A stretch of 64,000 bases of DNA, taken from NCBI GenBank assembly GCA_013297655.1, contig JAAFHV010000001.1, positions 1 through 64,000 of the forward strand, read 5' to 3'. Each line of letters begins with the position of its first letter. The stretch's first letter is position 1. Below the pieces are notes generated by a model. It did no database searches. It had not been told where the DNA came from and was given only the letters and a program-made list of their open reading frames with translations. The translations under genes were made by a program, and so were the position numbers. This document shows positions 3,312 to 42,964 of the stretch, piece by piece. This DNA comes from Myxococcales bacterium. GTDB lineage: Bacteria; Myxococcota_A; Polyangia; Polyangiales; Polyangiaceae.

Positions 3312-3637
3312 GGGCCACGTGTGTCGCATCGGCGGCGACGAGCGCAAAAGGCCGACACGGTGTCCCGGAGCTGCACGATCGCGCGGGCACTCGGGCCACG
3401 GGCCGCACGGCGCGGGTTGTATCGAGCTCTGGCTCTGTCGCGTGGCGGGCGAGGCGCCTGCCTGGCTCGCACCGGCATCCGACGGTTCAGATAGGTGTTC
3501 GCACGCCTATTCAAACCGTAAAGTTTCGCAGATCAAACCTATATTTTGGTGACGTGGCTCGTCTGGCGACGAGGGTCGGCTGTGAACCGATGGAGGCGGG
3601 TAATAGACCTTCGGTAACGATCCCCGTACGTCACCCC

Positions 3638-3690
3638 GCTGCGCGGCTTCGGCTGCGTGGCACATTGCTGCGCGGCTTCGGCTGCGTGGC
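3638..3690. repeat. 24-base direct repeat
   Basis: The 24 bases at 3638-3661 recur exactly at 3667-3690, with a five-base spacer (period 29). Each copy is itself built from GCTGCGCGGCTTCGGCTGCG-type words. It lies 60-110 bases upstream of the tRNA. It could be a replication-slippage product or part of the upstream control region; nothing in the sequence decides this. Confidence 0.7.
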
Positions 3691-3749
3691 CACCGGATGC
3701 CACGAGGGTTACTTCGAACCTATCCCTCGCTCTCCACTTGCCGGTTTTT

Positions 3750-3822
3750 GCCGACGTAACCCAATTGGTAGAGGCCCACCCTCAAAAGGTGAAAAGTGTC
3801 CGTTCGAATCGGACCGTCGGCA
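3750..3822 (+). tRNA. tRNA with anticodon CAA, short variable loop
   Basis: A 73-base cloverleaf. The acceptor stem pairs GCCGACG (3750-3756) with CGTCGGC (3815-3821), discriminator A at 3822. The T-stem GTCCG/CGGAC is perfect around loop TTCGAAT. The anticodon loop is CTCAAAA (3781-3787), giving anticodon CAA at 3783-3785, which would read the Leu codon UUG. The variable loop is only five bases (AAAGT), whereas true tRNA-Leu has a long variable arm. The D-stem is poor (ACCC against GAGG, two of four pairs) and the outermost anticodon-stem pair is a C-A mismatch. CCA is not encoded (CCT follows). It may be a degenerate, retuned or non-canonical tRNA gene. Confidence 0.7.
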
Positions 3823-3853
3823 CCTCGCTAACCAACTAAGCCGTGGACAAAAG

Positions 3854-3892
3854 GCGAGAGCACCGCGTCTGCGTGGCAGGCGGTGCTCTCGC
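3854..3892 (-). terminator. Terminator hairpin between tRNA and minus-strand gene
   Basis: A perfect 12-base-pair stem (GCGAGAGCACCG against CGGTGCTCTCGC) with a 15-base loop. Read on the minus strand it is followed by CTTTTG, so it most likely ends the transcript of the gene at 3908-4426. It sits between two convergent transcripts and may also help to stop the tRNA transcript, although there is no T-run on the plus side. Confidence 0.65.
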
Positions 3893-3907
3893 GATCGTTC
3901 GATATCG

Positions 3908-4426
3908 TCACTTGCCTCGCGGCATGTCACCGCGCGGCTGATGGGCGCCCTTGCGCCGCTCGGGTGCCTGCTTTCTCAGGTCGTCGAGCCTCGCGCCCCC
4001 TTGCGCCTGGTGCCCGTGAGCGTGCCCTCCGCCCGCCGACGCCAAACCGCGCGCGGACTCGAAGTCGAGCGCCTCACGCGACGCGCGATCGACGTCGGGC
4101 AGCGTGAAGCTCGGACCATCGTCACGCTCCGAAGTCGACGCCGCGAGCGCCACGTTCGCGATCGCCGCGCGGACCTGGGTCGCGCTCTCGGTCGGCGAGT
4201 ACACCGAGACGTCCCCGCCGAAGTCTGGGTTGAGCAGCATGGGATCGTCGTTGTCCTCGTGCTGTTCCCGCGCGCCAGTGGGCTCTTGAACGGGCCGATG
4301 CCCAGGCGAGCTCGCGGTGGCGGCCGAAGCCTTGCGGGTCTCGTCGCGGGTCGGGTTGCGCGTGGTGGGCTCCTCGCGTCGGTCACTCGAGATTGTACGG
4401 TTCGTCGTGGGCTGGGGTTGCGCCAT
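3908..4426 (-). CDS. Small hydrophilic protein of unknown function
   Basis: A 172-residue, highly charged protein without signal peptide or membrane segment, probably cytoplasmic and partly disordered. The N-terminal 60 residues are rich in Thr, Arg and Pro; a middle stretch (SATQVRAAIANVALAASTSE) could form one helix; the tail is rich in Gly, His, Gln and Arg (GGGHAHGHQAQGG). No known domain is recognised. The start at 4426 is chosen because AAAGGAG lies seven bases upstream; the frame is open further upstream but without a ribosome site. A strong hairpin at 3854-3892 follows its stop, which supports it being a real transcribed gene. It is divergent from msrA across 315 bases. Confidence 0.6.
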   Translation of the reverse strand: MAQPQPTTNRTISSDRREEPTTRNPTRDETRKASAATASSPGHRPVQEPTGAREQHEDNDDPMLLNPDFGGDVSVYSPTESATQVRAAIANVALAASTSERDDGPSFTLPDVDRASREALDFESARGLASAGGGHAHGHQAQGGARLDDLRKQAPERRKGAHQPRGDMPRGK

Positions 4427-4741
4427 GCTCGGCTCCTTTCGAAAGCGCCTCGTTGGCACCAAAGCGGCGCGGGGAGACACTGGGTTCGTCGCTCGGTGCG
4501 ACGATGGAGACATGTGCATCGCGCATGCCACGAGAAGGCGCATACTTTCTCCCCGCGGTTCAGGCAGACGCGGCTTCGCGACGCGCCTCACGTGTGCTCT
4601 CTCGCCTCATCATCTACCGAGAATTTCCCTACCGTCCTCGACGAAGGTCGCCAAACCATGACGCTATCGATGCTTCCGCGCACGACCTCGAAGATCGCTC
4701 CGCGCCACGAAACCGAGCATCGCTTGGAGCGTAGAGAGGGC
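4427..4741. other. Divergent intergenic region
   Basis: 315 bases between the small hydrophilic protein (minus) and msrA (plus). It should hold both promoters. No operator-like palindrome or clear sigma-70 pair is seen. Confidence 0.4.
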
Positions 4742-5431
4742 ATGCGCACCTCGCTCGTTGGCGGACTCCTCCTCTCGCTCGCTTCGCTGCTCGGCGGCGC
4801 GGCCCTCGCCGGCTGCAAGAACACCGCGTCGTCGAAGGACATGACGCCCAGCCCGGCAGACTCCACCCTCTCCGCGGTGAAGGGCACCGGCGTCGGCACG
4901 AACCCGGGCAACGCAGGCAAAGGCACGCCGCTCAGCCCCGCCGCCGGGCACGAGCTCGCCGCCTTCGCCGAGGGGTGTTTCTGGGGCTCGGAGAACACGT
5001 TCCGCCACGTGAAAGGCGTGACGGCCACCGCCGTCGGCTACTCCGGAGGCCACACCGAAGCCCCCACCTACGAGACCGTATGCGCCCACGGCACTGGCCA
5101 CGCCGAGGCCGTGCTCGTCGAGTTCGACCCGAAGGTGGTCTCCTACGAAGCGCTCCTCGAGACCTTCTGGAAGAGCCACGATCCCACCACCAAGAACCGC
5201 CAAGGCCCCGACGTGGGCGACCAATACCGAAGCGGCATCTTCACCTTCTCGCCCGCGCAAGAGGCCGCCGTGCGCGCCTCGATCGCGACCGAGCAGAAGC
5301 GCCTGTCGAAGCCGATCACGACCGAGGTGGCGCCGATGAAAGCGTTCTGGAAAGCCGAGGAGTACCACCAGCAGTACGACGAAAAATCGGGCAAAGAGTC
5401 GTGCCCGCTGCCCGGCGCGCGCGGCACCTGA
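4742..5431 (+). CDS. msrA: Peptide-methionine (S)-S-oxide reductase, lipoprotein form
   Basis: Reduces methionine-S-sulfoxide in oxidised proteins. The catalytic motif GCFWGSE is at residues 78-84 (nucleophile Cys79), followed by the conserved VGYSGG, DPTTKNRQGPDVGDQYRS and EEYHQQY segments, so the domain is complete. Unlike the usual cytoplasmic enzyme it begins with a lipoprotein signal (LGGAALAGC, Cys25) and a 40-residue linker, so it should act on periplasmic or envelope proteins. The start at 4742 has AGAGGG just upstream; the frame runs far upstream without a credible start. An unlinked MsrB at 37764-38225 handles the R-epimer but has no signal peptide. Confidence 0.93.
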   Translation: MRTSLVGGLLLSLASLLGGAALAGCKNTASSKDMTPSPADSTLSAVKGTGVGTNPGNAGKGTPLSPAAGHELAAFAEGCFWGSENTFRHVKGVTATAVGYSGGHTEAPTYETVCAHGTGHAEAVLVEFDPKVVSYEALLETFWKSHDPTTKNRQGPDVGDQYRSGIFTFSPAQEAAVRASIATEQKRLSKPITTEVAPMKAFWKAEEYHQQYDEKSGKESCPLPGARGT

Positions 5432-5463
5432 GCCAATCTCGGCCATGATCGTGGTCGAACGGT

Positions 5464-6417
5464 ATGCTCCCGTGCATGAGCGCGCTGCATACCCCGTCGT
5501 TCGATTTGAACCTGCTCCCCGTGCTCGAGGCGCTCTTGCGATTGCAGAGCGTGACGCGCGCGGGAGAGGTCACCGGGCGCACCCAATCGGCGACCAGCCA
5601 CGCCCTCGCGCGACTCCGTGAAACGTTCGGAGACGAGCTCCTCGTGCGATCGGGACGCGGTTTTTTGCGCACGCCACGCGCCGAGGCGCTGCTCCCGGAG
5701 GTGACCGCCGCGCTCGCGAGCGCACACGCGCTGCTGCGTCCCGCCACGCCGTTCGCGCCGGCGACCTCGACGAGGCGCTTCGTGATCGCGTGCCCCGACC
5801 TGCTCGCCGCGATCGTTCCCTCTCTCGTCGCGACCCTCGCCCGCGAGGCGCCTCGCATTCGCCTCGCGTTCGAGCCGCTCGGTTCGGGCGTCGACGAGAG
5901 GCTCGCCACCGGCGCTCTCGACGTCGCCCTCGGAGCCCGCGAGGACGGTCCGTCGATCGTGAAGAGGCCCCTCGGCGAGGTCACGTTCGGCGTGGTCGCG
6001 CGGCGGGCACATCCCGCGATCCCGAGGGGAAAATCCCTCGATTTGGCGACGTGGCTCGCCCACCCGCACGTGGTCGTGGGCACCGGCTCGGGCACCCCGA
6101 GCTTCGTGAAGCGCGCGCTCGACCGCGAGAAGCTCGCGCGGGTCGTGGGCGTGGAGGTGCCCACGTTCGTGATGGCGCTCTACCTCGCCGCGGAGACGGA
6201 CCACTTCTTCACCGCGCCGCGCGAGCTCGTCAGCGCCCTCGCCGCGCTCCTCGATCTCCGCATGCACGCCGTGCCCGTCCCGGTGGCCCCCGTGGAAGCG
6301 ACCCTCGTCTGGCACGAGCGCGCCCGCGCCGACGACGGCCACGCCTGGCTCCGAAAGAGGCTCGAGGCTCACCTCGGCGCGCTGCTCACGAAGGGCCGCG
6401 ACGGCTCTCGCCGCTGA
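5464..6417 (+). CDS. LysR-family transcriptional regulator
   Basis: A 317-residue protein of normal LysR length. An N-terminal winged helix-turn-helix (NLLPVLEALLRLQSVTRAGE, then TQSATSHALARLRETFGDEL) is followed by a periplasmic-binding-protein-like effector domain from about residue 95. The NLLPVLEALL start and the short PLGEVTFGVVARRAHP segment resemble the NodD/NahR-like branch. It lies 32 bases after msrA on the same strand, so the two might be cotranscribed, but LysR genes usually control a divergent target and none is present here. A second ATG at 5476 is an equally good start; neither has a strong ribosome site. The effector is unknown. Confidence 0.88.
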   Translation: MLPCMSALHTPSFDLNLLPVLEALLRLQSVTRAGEVTGRTQSATSHALARLRETFGDELLVRSGRGFLRTPRAEALLPEVTAALASAHALLRPATPFAPATSTRRFVIACPDLLAAIVPSLVATLAREAPRIRLAFEPLGSGVDERLATGALDVALGAREDGPSIVKRPLGEVTFGVVARRAHPAIPRGKSLDLATWLAHPHVVVGTGSGTPSFVKRALDREKLARVVGVEVPTFVMALYLAAETDHFFTAPRELVSALAALLDLRMHAVPVPVAPVEATLVWHERARADDGHAWLRKRLEAHLGALLTKGRDGSRR

Positions 6418-37763: not shown

Positions 37764-38225
37764 CTACTTCACCTTCTGCAACGACACGGCGTTGATGCAG
37801 TACCGGAGCCGCGAAGGGGCGGGGCCATCGGGAAAGACATGGCCAAGGTGGCCGTCGCAGACCGCACAAATCGCCTCGATCCGGATCATGCCGTGGGCTT
37901 CGTCCACGTGGTACCCGACCACGCCGGGTGTGAGAGGCGCGGTGAAGCTCGGCCAACCGGTGCCGCTCTCGAACTTGTGGGTCGCGTCGAAGAGCTCCGT
38001 GCCGCAACCCGCGCAGGCGTAAAGCCCAGGCTCGAACAACGAGCACATCTCGGAGGAGTGCGGACGCTCGGTGCCCTTCGCGCGGAGCACGCGGAACTGC
38101 TCCGGCGTGAGCGCAGCGCGCCACGCCTCGTCGCTTCGTTCGTCGCGACGCGGGGGAGGAGGCGCGCCTCGCTCGGCCCATCGCTGAATCTCGTTCCAGG
38201 TCGGAGTCTCGGTGGTGTTCGTCAT
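37764..38225 (-). CDS. msrB: Peptide-methionine (R)-S-oxide reductase
   Basis: A 153-residue MsrB that reduces methionine-R-sulfoxide. Zinc is held by two CxxC pairs (Cys71/Cys74 in CAGCGTELF, Cys120/Cys123 in CAVCDGHLGHVF), and the catalytic Cys143 lies in LRYCINAVSLQ. The FESGTGWPSF substrate motif is present. No signal peptide, so cytoplasmic, unlike the lipoprotein MsrA at 4742. The ATG at 38225 has GAGGAG five bases upstream. Nested palindromes lie in the divergent promoter region. Confidence 0.93.
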   Translation of the reverse strand: MTNTTETPTWNEIQRWAERGAPPPPRRDERSDEAWRAALTPEQFRVLRAKGTERPHSSEMCSLFEPGLYACAGCGTELFDATHKFESGTGWPSFTAPLTPGVVGYHVDEAHGMIRIEAICAVCDGHLGHVFPDGPAPSRLRYCINAVSLQKVK

Positions 38226-38287
38226 GCGCTCCTCGGTGCCTTCGCGGCGGGAGGAGCGTAAGGCCGCGCCGTCGTCCTGTCTCGCCC

Positions 38288-38323
38288 TGTACCGGGGCAT
38301 CGCGCGATGCCTGTACCGGTACA
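38288..38323. promoter_or_regulatory. Nested palindromes in divergent promoter region
   Basis: Between msrB (minus) and the lipoprotein at 38406 (plus). A perfect 16-base palindrome GGCATCGCGCGATGCC (38296-38311) is followed directly by a perfect 12-base palindrome TGTACCGGTACA (38312-38323). The half TGTACCGG recurs at 38288-38295, so the long palindrome is flanked by two TGTACCGG copies in direct orientation. This looks like a dimeric repressor operator; the regulator is unknown. Confidence 0.5.
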
Positions 38324-38405
38324 CCCGAGCGAGCCCCTCAGCCACGAATTACTCAGCAATTTCAACAAACAAGACCTTGGCACGGCGAACGCAATAGGGG
38401 TCGTC

Positions 38406-40685
38406 ATGAAGACGCTCACCGCCTCCCTCCTCGCTCTCTCGGTCTCGGTCCTCTCCACCACCATCGGCTGCGCGGCCCCGACCGACGACGCGCCCATCGG
38501 TCCGGCTCCGGCTGCTCCCGCCGCTCCCTCGACCAAGCACCACACGGTCGTCGTCGGCGAGGACCACGAGATCGTGGCCCGGCGCGACGCGCTTCGGCCC
38601 AAGCGCTCGTTCGGCGTGAAGTCACTCCGCGACGAGGTGCCCGCGGGTCCCTCCAAGTTCGTCCGCTCGAGCGGCACGGTGGTCGCGAACCCGCGCACCG
38701 ACGCGGGCCTCACGATCGAGCTCGCTCGCGGCGTCGGCGGCGCATCCGCGGGAGCTGGGCTGACGGCGGGCGGCGTGGAATCGTCGGACCCCGCCGTCGC
38801 GACGGCCACGGTGGTGGGCGCGAAGCTCACCGTCACGCTCACGGGCAAGCTCGGCAACACGTTCCTCACCACGTTCGACGCCTCCGGAAACGCCACCGCG
38901 AAGGTGATGGTGCTCTCCGCGCTCCCGATGCCTGGAACCGCGATCATCGACGACGAGGCGCTCGAGCCCGCGGCCCTCCAGTACGGCACCTACGGCGTGC
39001 CGGAGACGCTCGCGACCGACTTCGCCGACCGCACGAGCGACCAAGCCCTCTCTGCCCTCTACGCCGCGACCCCCGGCCAAGACGGGCGCATCGGCGCGAT
39101 GACCTTCGCGAACGTCGCCGCGTCCAGCGCGCTCGCCAAAGCCGCTATCGACGCGGTTGGTCAAGGACCGAACGGCGTGCGCGCCATCTACTTTCCCAAG
39201 AAGGACCTGCTCGTCACCACGGTGCACGGCGACATGAGCGGGAGCGGCACCCCCGGCGGTACGTATGAAATCTCGATCGGCGCGGCGGTCTCGCAGGCCG
39301 ACTTCGGCACCTACGCGGACTTCGGCGGCGTGCTCGGCTCGAGCCCGCTCCACGACGCGAACGCGGTCGAGACCGGCGCGCTCTCCTTCGCCTCGAACGG
39401 CGCGAGCGTGGGCGCCATCGCTCCGGTGAAGGTCGGCGTCGTGCTCGCCGACGGACGCAAAGTGATGGCGAGCGAGAGCGGATTCGCGGCCGCCGAGGCG
39501 AAGGCGGTGCGCCACCTCGTGGCCTATCCGCAGCCCGGCGAGCCCCTCGGCGAGGCGCTCACTTGCGAGACGTCGAAGTCGGCCGGCGCGATCGATTGGC
39601 GCTCGCTCTACTCCACCGCGGAGACCAAGCTCTCGGCCGACGCGAAGTGGAACGGCGGCAAGCCGAGCATCGCCCTCGACCTCGAGCCCCACGTCCGCGT
39701 CGGCGGGCAAATCGGGATCGCCGGCCACTTCGAGGGCAAGTGTGAAAAGACGATGTTCGAGGTGCCTGTTGCGGAGTGGGGCATCCCCCTCTTCGGCAAC
39801 GTGGCGGTGAACGCGCCGGTGAAGGTGGAGCTCTCCGTGAAGGCCGACGGCTCGGTGACGGTGATGACGCCGCGGGTAGAGCTCGGGAGCGCGCAAGACA
39901 CGTCGAAGCCTGGAAAAATCGGGTTCTCGTACGCGGTGGGCGGCAAGTTCACCGTCGACCACGACCTCGCGGTGACGAGCGCCTACACCTCGCTCGGCGC
40001 GGTGGAGGGCTCGGCGGAGGGCAACGCGCACGTGGAGGTAGAGGCCGGCATCGGCGCGGCGCTGGGCCTCGAGGCGCAGGTGAAGGTGTGGATCTTCAAG
40101 GCGAGCGTGCGGGCCGATCTGGGCGACGTGGTCTTCGGAGTGAAGGACGAGGCCGACCTCACCGTTCACCTCGCCGACATGAGCTACGACGCCTCGAACG
40201 ACTTCAAGTTGGGACTCTTTCCGCACTTCGCCCCCACGCTCCGGGTCGACACGCCGTTCTTCCACAAGTCGTACAACCTGTTCTCGGTCGACCTCGGAGA
40301 CATGGCCTTCTACGACGAGCGCACCACCCCCAAGGGCTCGAAGTTGTTCACGAAAGAGAGCGCGAAGCAGACCCAGACGGAGGACGGCGCGACGGTGACG
40401 TACGTGCAGGCGAGCGACCACATCGAGATCCGCGACATGGGCAACATCACGAGCGTCGAGTCGGTGGTTCAAGGCATCTGGGGGAACGAGGTGCGCCGGT
40501 TCGTGGACCCCCAAATCGCGGCCGGCATCACCGGCGCCACCCTCAACCTGACCGGGATCGAGCTCAACGCCCTCGCCCGCGTGTACCAGCGCAACGGGAG
40601 CGGGACCATGCTCGGCCAATCGAGCTTCGACATGCACATGCAAAACGGGAAGACGGTGCGCATCTTCATCGGCACCGGGCTGTAA
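38406..40685 (+). CDS. Large lipoprotein of unknown function
   Basis: A 759-residue lipoprotein (MKTLTASLLALSVSVLSTTIGC, Cys22) with a Pro/Ala linker. The body is beta-rich and low in cysteine: the N-terminal third includes segments resembling an Ig-like or bacterial-adhesin fold (TGKLGNTFLTTFDASGNATA), and the central part holds long amphipathic strands (VAVNAPVKVELSVKADGSVT, VEAGIGAALGLEAQVKVWIF) that could form a lipid-binding or barrel-like sheet. No family is recognised. AGGGG precedes the ATG. It is divergent from msrB across a palindrome-rich region. Confidence 0.75.
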   Translation: MKTLTASLLALSVSVLSTTIGCAAPTDDAPIGPAPAAPAAPSTKHHTVVVGEDHEIVARRDALRPKRSFGVKSLRDEVPAGPSKFVRSSGTVVANPRTDAGLTIELARGVGGASAGAGLTAGGVESSDPAVATATVVGAKLTVTLTGKLGNTFLTTFDASGNATAKVMVLSALPMPGTAIIDDEALEPAALQYGTYGVPETLATDFADRTSDQALSALYAATPGQDGRIGAMTFANVAASSALAKAAIDAVGQGPNGVRAIYFPKKDLLVTTVHGDMSGSGTPGGTYEISIGAAVSQADFGTYADFGGVLGSSPLHDANAVETGALSFASNGASVGAIAPVKVGVVLADGRKVMASESGFAAAEAKAVRHLVAYPQPGEPLGEALTCETSKSAGAIDWRSLYSTAETKLSADAKWNGGKPSIALDLEPHVRVGGQIGIAGHFEGKCEKTMFEVPVAEWGIPLFGNVAVNAPVKVELSVKADGSVTVMTPRVELGSAQDTSKPGKIGFSYAVGGKFTVDHDLAVTSAYTSLGAVEGSAEGNAHVEVEAGIGAALGLEAQVKVWIFKASVRADLGDVVFGVKDEADLTVHLADMSYDASNDFKLGLFPHFAPTLRVDTPFFHKSYNLFSVDLGDMAFYDERTTPKGSKLFTKESAKQTQTEDGATVTYVQASDHIEIRDMGNITSVESVVQGIWGNEVRRFVDPQIAAGITGATLNLTGIELNALARVYQRNGSGTMLGQSSFDMHMQNGKTVRIFIGTGL

Positions 40686-40843: not shown

Positions 40844-42964
40844 ATGAGCCTCGCGCGCCGTGTGGCGATCACCCTCTCCGTACCCGTGCTGTTGGCGCTC
40901 GTCGCTCGCATTCCGCTGCCGGGCGTAGAATTGGAGGCGGTCGTAGCGGCGGGTGGAAGGCCGGAGCTCTTCGGTGTGCTCGCGCTCGGGCTCGTGCCCT
41001 ACCTCACCGCCGCGTGGCTCGTGGAGCTCGCCGCGTTCCTCGTTCCCAGGTGGTCGCGGCTTCGGCACGGCGGCCCCGAAGGTCGCCACACGCTCGAGAA
41101 GTGGTCGCTTCGGCTCGCGTTCGTGTTCGCGTTTCTGCAGGGATTTTCCGTCGCGAAGAGCCTCGAGTCGCTCGAGAGTGTGGGCCCGGGAGCGGAGATT
41201 TTGCGCGCGCCGGGGCTCGCGTCCACGGTCGCGATCATGTTCGCTGCCGCTGGCGGCTTGGCGTTGCAGCTCTTCTTCGCGCGCGTGATCACACGGCAGG
41301 GCATCGCGAACGGGGTCGTCGTTCTGTTCGGTGTCGCGCTGGGGCGCGAGCTGCTCGCGAGCCTTCTTCGACTCGTAGGCGCGGGGAACGGAGCGACGAT
41401 GGGCGCGGCGCTGACCCCGTTCGGCGCGCTCCGCGTGGTGCTCATCGCCGTCACCGTCGCGGTGGCGACGTTCTTCGTCACGCGCACGAACGAGGGCGAC
41501 CGAGGGAAAGCGCCCGCCGCCGATGGCCCCTACCGCGACGCGAAGCGGTTCGTCTCGGACCCCGAGATCCCGGTGCCCGCGAGCTCGGTCCAACCCTACG
41601 CGTTCGCGATCACGATCTTGGCGATCCCGAGCACGCTCGGCGCGCTCGGCGTGCCGGGGTTCACCAAGCTGGCTCGCCTCGTCGACGATCCGCCCGTGTT
41701 CTTCGCGACAGGCGTCGCGATCTCGATCGCCGCCGCGCTCGTGATCGCGTGGGTGCTGCATCGGCCGCGTGAAATCGCCGAGCTCTCTCGTGGGCTCGGC
41801 GGATCGAGCGTGGACGCGACGACGAGCGCGCGCGCCGCGCTTCGCCGCGCGACACCAGCGACGTTGGTCTACGTGGGAGGCCTCTTCTTCGCGTCCGCGG
41901 CGATGGAGCACGTGTCGGCGCTCTCGATCGCGCTTTTTACGGCGATCGTGCTCGACGTAGGGCAGGCCGCGCTCGCCCTTCGCCGCACGGCAGACATGGT
42001 GCCGGTGTGGGAAGAGCGCCGCGCGGTGGCGCTCCCGATCGCGCGCGAGGCTCTACGCGCCGACGGGATTACGGTCGTGATCGGGGGGACGCGCCTGCTC
42101 GCGCTGCTCCAAGTGTTCGCGCCCTATGCGCCGGCGGTGCTCTTCGTGGCACGCGCCGACGAAGAGCGCGCGCAAGCCGTGCTCCGTCATGTGCTCGCGG
42201 GAGGAGAGGCTCCCGAGCCACGCGCCGAAGGACCCCTCCCCGAAGCGACGAAGCCCACCGCGAAGCCGCTCGTGCCGGTCGCGGTGACGTTCGTGGTCGG
42301 CGCGCTCCTCGCCGGGATCGCCGGCTATTCCCCTTCTCCCGCGTCGTCTGGCCCGCGGCCCGTGCTCGAGCTCGTGCGCGTCGACGACGACGCCGATCCG
42401 CTCCGCGCGTTCGCGAAGGAAGATCCTCCCGTTCCAGGAGTGTCGGTTCGTATGGAGTCGATCCCCGGACCAAAGGGCTCTCGGATGGTGCATTATGCAT
42501 ACATCCCGATCGAGGGCACGACACGAGAGGCCGCGCTCGCGGGCGCAGGGCCGTGGCTCGCGACGGTGCCGAAGCCGGAAGGAACGCGGTTCGGCTTCGA
42601 GGACGTGCTCGAGGCTTCCCCCGACGGAGAGACACAAGAGGTCGTCGCGGTTCGTTCGTTTCTCCTCACGGGCAAGCCTGAAATCACCTCCGACGACGTG
42701 AAGAACGCCTCACTCGCGCCATCGACGGGCGACCAGGTGGGCATCGCGGTCGCGCTCACGGAGGACGGCGCGGCGCGCTTCGAGGCGCTCACGTCGGAGT
42801 GGACGAAGAAGCGGCTCGCGATCGTGCTCGATGGAAAAGTGATGAGCGCGCCGGTGATCATGTCGGCGATCGCGGGAGGGCACCTCACGATCACGATGGG
42901 CCACGGGGACCGCGAGCGCGAGATGGCAGAGGCGAAGAGGCTCGTCGCGGCGTTCGCTCGCTGA
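40844..42964 (+). CDS. SecY-like channel fused to DUF2007-like and SecD P1-like domains
   Basis: A 706-residue polytopic protein. Residues 1-385 follow the SecY order: LFGVLALGLVPYLTAAWLVE (SecY TM2 region), FLQGFSVAKSLE, ARVITRQGIANGVVVLFGVA (the ITRxGIGNGxS segment), and PEIPVPASSVQPYAFAITIL, which corresponds to SecY's 'IPLKVNxAGVMPxIFA' block. Residues 390-450 resemble DUF2007 (REALRADGITVVIGGTRLL, then FVARADEERAQAVL). A further membrane helix (474-494) leads to residues 505-680, which match the SecD P1 head: VGIAVALTEDGAARFEALT and LAIVLDGKVMSAPVIMSAIA. It may be an accessory translocation channel carrying its own periplasmic SecD-like lobe. No secE, secG or secD lies nearby. No Shine-Dalgarno is evident. 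Confidence 0.75.
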   Translation: MSLARRVAITLSVPVLLALVARIPLPGVELEAVVAAGGRPELFGVLALGLVPYLTAAWLVELAAFLVPRWSRLRHGGPEGRHTLEKWSLRLAFVFAFLQGFSVAKSLESLESVGPGAEILRAPGLASTVAIMFAAAGGLALQLFFARVITRQGIANGVVVLFGVALGRELLASLLRLVGAGNGATMGAALTPFGALRVVLIAVTVAVATFFVTRTNEGDRGKAPAADGPYRDAKRFVSDPEIPVPASSVQPYAFAITILAIPSTLGALGVPGFTKLARLVDDPPVFFATGVAISIAAALVIAWVLHRPREIAELSRGLGGSSVDATTSARAALRRATPATLVYVGGLFFASAAMEHVSALSIALFTAIVLDVGQAALALRRTADMVPVWEERRAVALPIAREALRADGITVVIGGTRLLALLQVFAPYAPAVLFVARADEERAQAVLRHVLAGGEAPEPRAEGPLPEATKPTAKPLVPVAVTFVVGALLAGIAGYSPSPASSGPRPVLELVRVDDDADPLRAFAKEDPPVPGVSVRMESIPGPKGSRMVHYAYIPIEGTTREAALAGAGPWLATVPKPEGTRFGFEDVLEASPDGETQEVVAVRSFLLTGKPEITSDDVKNASLAPSTGDQVGIAVALTEDGAARFEALTSEWTKKRLAIVLDGKVMSAPVIMSAIAGGHLTITMGHGDREREMAEAKRLVAAFAR

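Follow-up and report, generated by a model that had tools for sequence, protein, structure and literature searches.

A SecY-Like Body, a DUF2007-Like Domain, and a SecD P1 Lobe in One Reading Frame

The window analyzed here, that is, the whole stretch of 64,000 nucleotides from contig JAAFHV010000001.1 of a Myxococcales bacterium, contains on its + strand a single open frame that runs from an ATG at 40844 to a TGA at 42964 and encodes a protein of 706 amino acids, hereafter P0001. The GC content of the frame at the three codon positions (GC1/2/3 of 0.73/0.52/0.84) is typical of coding DNA. As judged from sequence and predicted fold, the chain is composed, in this order, of a ten-helix SecY body, a DUF2007 domain placed directly after TM10, one helix, and a P1 lobe. 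Its features are as follows (evidence in parentheses):

40844..42964, + strand: whole gene, SecY-like, DUF2007, transmembrane (TM) helix, SecD P1 (translation, Pfam, AlphaFold2, codon-position GC)
40844..41989, + strand: SecY-like domain, residues 1–382, ten TM helices (PF00344; VIA-align)
40916..40984, + strand: TM1–TM2b segment, site of the SecY plug (TM2a), shortened (alignment)
41024..41026, + strand: codon of Glu61, TM2b lateral gate, at the position of Escherichia coli SecY Gln93 (alignment)
41288..41314, + strand: C3 loop ITRQGIANG, residues 149–157 (alignment, conservation)
41765..41851, + strand: C5 loop without the RPG motif, residues 308–336 (alignment)
41990..42205, + strand: DUF2007-like domain, residues 383–454, predicted cytoplasmic (PF09413)
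42269..42325, + strand: single TM helix, residues 476–494, predicted to return the chain to the periplasm (hydropathy; model helix H476-494)
42347..42961, + strand: SecD P1 lobe, residues 502–706, head and second part of the base (PF22599; VIA-align)

A first-pass annotation, made from the letters alone, had proposed that parts of SecY and SecD are fused in this frame, and Pfam profiles, PDB sequence matches, and the predicted fold all bear this out. Profile searches on the single frame returned significant matches to SecY (PF00344, residues 45–313, E-value 3.4e-19, 69.8 bits for a cut-off of 32.2) and to the SecDF P1 head (PF22599, residues 605–685, E-value 1.7e-16, 60.5 bits for a cut-off of 27), the latter where a P1 head had been claimed; among PDB sequences, E-values reached 3.6e-14 for SecY chains and 2.1e-8 for SecDF (3aqp). 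The three SecY blocks named in the annotation fall in TM2b, in the TM4–TM5 (C3) loop, and in TM7. The DUF2007 claim holds for the relatives L038 and L039, which score above the PF09413 cut-off, but P0001 itself stays below it, with a match over residues 385–448 at an E-value of 0.021 (15.4 bits for a cut-off of 25.7), and of 4.6e-4 (20.7 bits, same cut-off) when the segment is searched alone. Full-length NCBIfam models also fell short of their cut-offs, as expected because the SecY part has diverged and the SecD part is incomplete: TIGR00967 (SecY) gave 64.5 bits for a cut-off of 253.6, and secD gave 44.2 bits, both far under their cut-offs, the SecD models finding a match in the P1 part only. 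The annotation had not mentioned the TM helix 476–494 that sits between DUF2007 and P1. As it had stated, the six-helix, proton-driven RND part of SecD is absent from P0001, as is the SecF half, the chain stopping at residue 706, right after P1.

None of the neighboring genes at the locus is a Sec gene, in agreement with the first description. The frame just upstream (38307–40685, + strand) encodes a protein of 792 amino acids with a lipoprotein-like signal (STTIGCA), unlinked to the fusion in relatives, and an MsrB-like methionine sulfoxide reductase frame was recognized by eye at 37764–38345 (− strand).

Predicted Structure and Topology

The AlphaFold2 model of P0001, built from an alignment of the window protein and its relatives in which no housekeeping SecY or SecD rows were included, has a mean pLDDT of 87.5 and a pTM of 0.79. 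Foldseek searches with this model retrieved SecY (8ya3_Y, E-value 9.7e-10) and the P1 of SecDF (3aqo, E-value 2e-6). VIA-align superposed residues 1–385 on residues 12–425 of SecY 8ya3_Y (Z 24.1, rmsd 3.5, 362 residues) and residues 498–706 on residues 72–247 of SecDF 5yhf (Z 13.9), so that both the SecY and the P1 folds are recovered by structure prediction. In the model, the SecY part is complete, with its ten helices arranged in two halves. What P0001 shares with SecD/SecDF (PF22599; 3aqo, 5yhf) is the P1 head and part of its base, periplasmic by topology; it differs from them in that it lacks the RND six-helix proton channel and P4/SecF, and carries its P1 on a SecY body.

Relatives in which the order of the domains is reversed (see below) hold the whole P1; in forward fusions, P1 is reduced to its head and the second part of its base. 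In the model of one such reverse-order protein (L106, pLDDT 71.4, SecY Z 20.9, P1 Z 16.6 over 209 residues), residues 29–318 align to residues 41–262 of 3aqo_C, that is, to the whole P1. Standard SecY topology would place DUF2007 of P0001 in the cytoplasm and its P1 in the periplasm, and it follows that these locations would also apply to reverse-order fusions and to those separate P1 proteins that begin with a signal peptide or a lipoprotein signal. Two other identities considered for the DUF2007 part were rejected: a STAS domain, which was the sole sequence match among solved structures (E-value 0.4), and a type III secretion ring domain, whose structural match (Z 7.8) was within noise.

Three Architectures in the Relatives

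A profile that spans TM8 to DUF2007 (A1) detected relatives in 18 of the 108 family genomes, in 55 of the 318 class genomes, and in 23 of the 379 genomes that make up the phylum sample. The weakest matches were other DUF2007 proteins, and the SecY-like forms were then sorted by domain scans. A SecY match at E ≤ 0.01 was obtained for 26 of the 29 members of set A3, three rows of which are P1 only, and for all 11 members of set A4.

The forward order of P0001 occurs in 11 further genomes of its family (f1), ten of them with an intact gene (L036, L069–L077) and one with a broken frame (L037). In the latter (3396–5508, genome G278), the fusion is split into two overlapping frames with the break inside DUF2007, which may be a frameshift, an assembly error, or a real split. 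The reverse order, P1-TM-SecY-DUF2007, was found in families f12 and f70 (L045, L096, L100–L103, L105–L107, L110, L111) and in one further protein (L180, genome G300), hence in at least 12 genomes of other families; Pfam confirmed both P1 and SecY in 11 of the 11 reverse-order proteins tested. About 19 further proteins join SecY to DUF2007 without P1, and their genomes often contain a separate P1 gene. Ten of these P1-less proteins carry an N-terminal Cys4 zinc ribbon of the type CPNVACSHRQRTGTPAEYDVDRPDCADC (L038, L039, L041, L043, L078, L079, L093, L104, L109, L123); in our sample, the ribbon and P1 were never found together, and no fusion had a ribbon. In addition, L125 and L128 (genome G105) have a clear DUF2007 C-terminus behind a hydrophobic helical body that falls outside the SecY-like profile, and are possibly further diverged members.

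Because the fusion recurs in relatives, in the same order in 11 genomes and reversed in about 12, it is neither a chance nor an assembly join, two possibilities that we consequently discarded. The conservation in relatives that had been looked for was found; in some other relatives, the SecY-like and P1 parts are separate genes.

Fusion History

In the phylogenetic trees (supports, given in parentheses, are SH-aLRT values from a quick search, with many long branches and a deep order that is not resolved), the SecY-like proteins formed one clade (100), fully apart from housekeeping SecY. Within the SecY tree, the twelve forward fusions grouped together (85), and the reverse fusions formed another group along with three P1-less proteins (84). 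In the P1 tree, fused and separate P1s were split from the P1s of SecD (96). In genus g18, the SecY-like protein has no P1, and the stand-alone P1 genes nested inside the clade of forward-fusion P1s (98); the separate P1 of genome G335 grouped with the P1s of reverse fusions (89).

Since forward and reverse forms occupy different parts of the clade, these groupings suggest that fusion probably took place at least twice, in opposite orders, which argues that the SecY-like part and P1 act together. The presence of separate P1s inside clades of fused P1s suggests gene fission, and the simplest account of the trees has two or more fusions, made in opposite orders, and at least one later split.

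Separate P1 Genes

An extra P1 gene was identified in 12 of the 19 genomes that encode a P1-less SecY-like protein and in which the P1 of SecD was found. It was present in none of the 29 control genomes without a SecY-like gene, which belong mostly to f1; a thirtieth control, G300, proved to encode a reverse-order protein. In a broader and better matched control set without detected SecY-like gene, extra P1 genes occurred in 11 of 51 genomes; detection of SecY-like genes was incomplete, at least one (that of G300) having been missed. The enrichment relative to this broader set has a Fisher P of 0.0017, uncorrected for relatedness. Given these 11 genomes, the co-occurrence is an enrichment and not a rule, and the absolute tie between P1 and SecY-like genes suggested by a first count (12/22 vs. 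1/30) was dropped. The distribution supports a link between separate P1 genes and P1-less SecY-like proteins. According to their N-termini, inspected by eye, the products of most of the extra P1 genes are predicted to be lipoproteins or to carry a signal peptide.

Separate SecD-P1 proteins (L040, L042, L046, L171–L179, L213–L217) are found widely across genomes of the phylum, including some that have no detected SecY-like gene, and are apparently undescribed.

A Remodeled SecY under Purifying Selection

We aligned 42 SecY-like with 18 housekeeping SecY sequences, assigning E. coli residue numbers via motifs and checking them against the prlA4 substitutions (F286Y, I408N) of PMC4826270. P0001 has in common with housekeeping SecY (PF00344, TIGR00967) the ten-helix fold, a hydrophobic constriction, the C3 signature IT..G..NG, and the Asp of TM10, and differs from it by the loss of RPG, a short or altered C4, a short plug segment, three substitutions, and the added DUF2007 and P1. 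The SecY half is thus divergent, as had been noted. The RPG motif of C5, which contains E. coli R357 and couples SecY to SecA or the ribosome, is shared by all three domains of life and is described as a universal coupling switch (PMC4826270); it is present in 17 of 18 housekeeping sequences and in none of the 42 SecY-like ones. C4 is likewise shortened or altered across the SecY-like proteins, with loss of its motif. The TM1–TM2b segment is 22 residues long in P0001 and 12–37 (median 22) across the family, versus 37–39 (median 38) in housekeeping SecY, a protein that tolerates plug deletions (PMC8675477). As for the substitutions, the position of Gln93 in the lateral gate (TM2b) is Glu in 42/42 SecY-like proteins and Gln in 17/18 housekeeping ones, the Glu of TERG in C3 is replaced by Arg in 34/42 (Arg151 in P0001), and the Asn of TM7 by Pro in 38/42.

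Other features are retained. The pore ring of P0001 is made of six nonpolar residues (L50, L54, V158, F162, A253, L364), and the corresponding positions are mostly nonpolar across the family, those of I278, I408, and I191 being polar in some members. Positions 82 and 86 are hydrophobic in 42/42 and 41/42 members, respectively, and Glu61, Arg81, and Gly153 are found in all 42. Conservation peaks in TM2b, C2, C3 (whose ITRQGIANG is the best conserved stretch of the SecY-like part), and DUF2007, and is low in C4, the periplasmic loops, and TM5–TM6.

The ratios of nonsynonymous to synonymous substitution (dN/dS) for the pair G386/G387 were 0.51 in the SecY-like part, 0.25 in DUF2007, and 0.36 in P1, and those for the pair G294/G370 were 0.06 in the zinc ribbon, 0.42 in the SecY-like part, and 0.17 in DUF2007, the ribbon being the slowest-evolving part where measured. 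Judging by these values, the gene is under purifying selection, loosest in the membrane part and tightest in the cytoplasmic domains. A functionless, decaying SecY duplicate that acquired P1 fortuitously could explain the fast divergence, the loss of RPG, and the broken frame of the G278 copy, but is hardly credible, given that dN/dS is below 1 in all parts, that long open frames persist across many genera at about 30% identity, that three residues are invariant in the 42 members, and that the fusion was made in two orders.

The same gradient of constraint is also what would be expected of a sensor or receptor, in which P1 would bind unfolded or emerging chains on the periplasmic side, the SecY-derived body would pass their state on through the membrane, and DUF2007, with the ribbon in many P1-less forms, would report it to the cytoplasm. 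Such a role also agrees with the location of conserved residues at the cytoplasmic face, with the altered RPG switch, plug segment, and C4, and with the many members that have no P1 in their chain. However, a simple anchor would suffice for it, whereas the full ten-helix SecY body is kept, with hydrophobic residues at positions 82 and 86; no downstream signaling partner is conserved beside the gene; and the only signaling role ascribed to DUF2007 is the one in Pfam's label for PF09413, "putative prokaryotic signal transducing protein." We regard this explanation as unlikely.

Housekeeping Sec Genes and Genomic Context

A separate housekeeping set, whose presence was to be checked, was found in the source genome (G000). 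It comprises an ordinary SecY (L001, C41, 369.7 bits), one SecE (C189), one SecA (C343), and, at L048, consecutive YajC-like, SecD, and SecF frames, of which YajC and SecF were recognized by eye. The single SecE and SecA, the SecD kind of the P1 lobe, and the absence of partner genes of its own would all suit a modulator of the housekeeping translocon, that is, a paralog that either binds SecYEG or draws SecE or substrates away from it, and whose P1 replaces or rivals that of SecD. Nevertheless, housekeeping SecY is 98% identical within genus g18 and the SecY-like protein 72%, so that, the cytoplasmic face apart, hardly anything hints at a fixed interface, which makes such a modulator quite improbable in our opinion.

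No conserved gene neighbor was found across the relatives, and no substrate is visible from the context; the neighbors that relatives do share are, by eye, common kinases, regulators, and ligases. tblastn searches against plasmids returned ordinary SecY only, and a database-wide scan with a single sequence and exact short peptides returned one SecY, a result uninformative on other phyla.

Comparison with Known Systems

Accessory SecY2 works in the SecA2/SecY2/Asp system (PMC5076819). Like P0001, it is a second SecY beside the housekeeping copy and probably specialized; P0001 differs in that it scores 10.0 with the SecY2 model (cut-off 353), resides in a genome with a single SecA, and has no adjoining Asp proteins. 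The SecY2 score and the single SecA rule out that P0001 is an accessory SecY2. SecY2 is not known to contain DUF2007 or P1. With other DUF2007 proteins (PF09413), the family shares a domain of about 65 residues, which follows TM10 here, and many P1-less members also carry a zinc ribbon; in contrast to other DUF2007 proteins, it has this domain joined to a SecY-like membrane body. SecDF, in which SecD and SecF form one chain, is also a natural fusion of Sec components, but unites two subunits of the same complex, whereas P0001 unites SecY with a part of SecD.

In the open-access literature, we found no description of DUF2007 with SecY, of a natural SecY–SecD fusion, or of a paralog of the P0001 type, which agrees with the initial statement that no protein with the order SecY-DUF2007-P1 had been described; this absence is a weak argument because it covers open-access papers only. 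The component families are therefore known, and what is new is their combination, its two orders, and the remodeled SecY.

A Putative SecY-Derived Gate with a Periplasmic Clamp

Few specialized paralogs are known of SecY, an essential protein that is nearly universal and changes little. The fused, reversed, and separate forms suggest that the export machinery has an accessory branch not described before, as far as can be judged from sequences. We tentatively propose, with somewhat less than even confidence, that P0001 belongs to an undescribed family of SecY paralogs ("SecY-DUF2007") that cooperates with a P1 lobe of the SecD type. It is possible, though short of probable, that the family forms a specialized, SecY-derived polypeptide gate with a periplasmic clamp (P1) and a cytoplasmic regulator (DUF2007), as the sequences and the model would allow. 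Transport is what we infer here from an established architecture and family.

Under this proposal, the SecY body would be the polypeptide gate, its hydrophobic constriction kept and its plug reduced. Since the protein has lost C4 and, in C5, the RPG switch, the gate would be opened by neither SecA nor the ribosome in the usual way; instead, the fused DUF2007 might govern opening at the cytoplasmic face, through Glu61 in TM2b, C2, Arg151 in C3, and the end of TM10. The first-pass annotation had endowed the pore with its own pulling lobe. In SecDF, it is the proton-driven part that moves P1, and because the RND part is missing here, no proton-driven stroke is expected and "clamp" fits better than "pulling lobe." As in the chain-binding model from SecDF (PMC6028853), P1 at the periplasmic exit may bind the chain as it emerges or after it inserts; here it would work like a clamp or a ratchet rather than a proton-driven puller. 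The cargo would be one or a few envelope proteins, handled beside the housekeeping SecYEG–SecDF.

What speaks most against a general translocon is how fast the membrane part drifts, both within genus g18 and in dN/dS (0.42–0.51 vs. 0.17–0.25 for DUF2007), a pattern that would fit a scaffold or receptor just as well as a specialized channel. The broadest form of the proposal, a second kind of Sec translocon within this phylum, in which a SecY conduit free of SecA and ribosome would be gated by DUF2007 and an intramembrane Glu and would have its periplasmic P1 clamp either attached to one of its two ends or encoded apart as a lipoprotein, is in our judgment somewhat unlikely.

Taken as a gate with a clamp or otherwise, a whole lineage of SecY paralogs no longer has the RPG switch, has a shorter plug segment, and carries an added cytoplasmic domain as a constant feature. 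The repeated fusion provides genomic evidence for P1 acting beside a SecY-type body, which bears on the relationship between the P1 of SecD and the translocon. Moreover, the fusions fix the stoichiometry and position of channel and clamp in one polypeptide, which would be useful for structures of the contact between P1 and the pore. If transport proves true, a SecY channel could be run without SecA or the ribosome.
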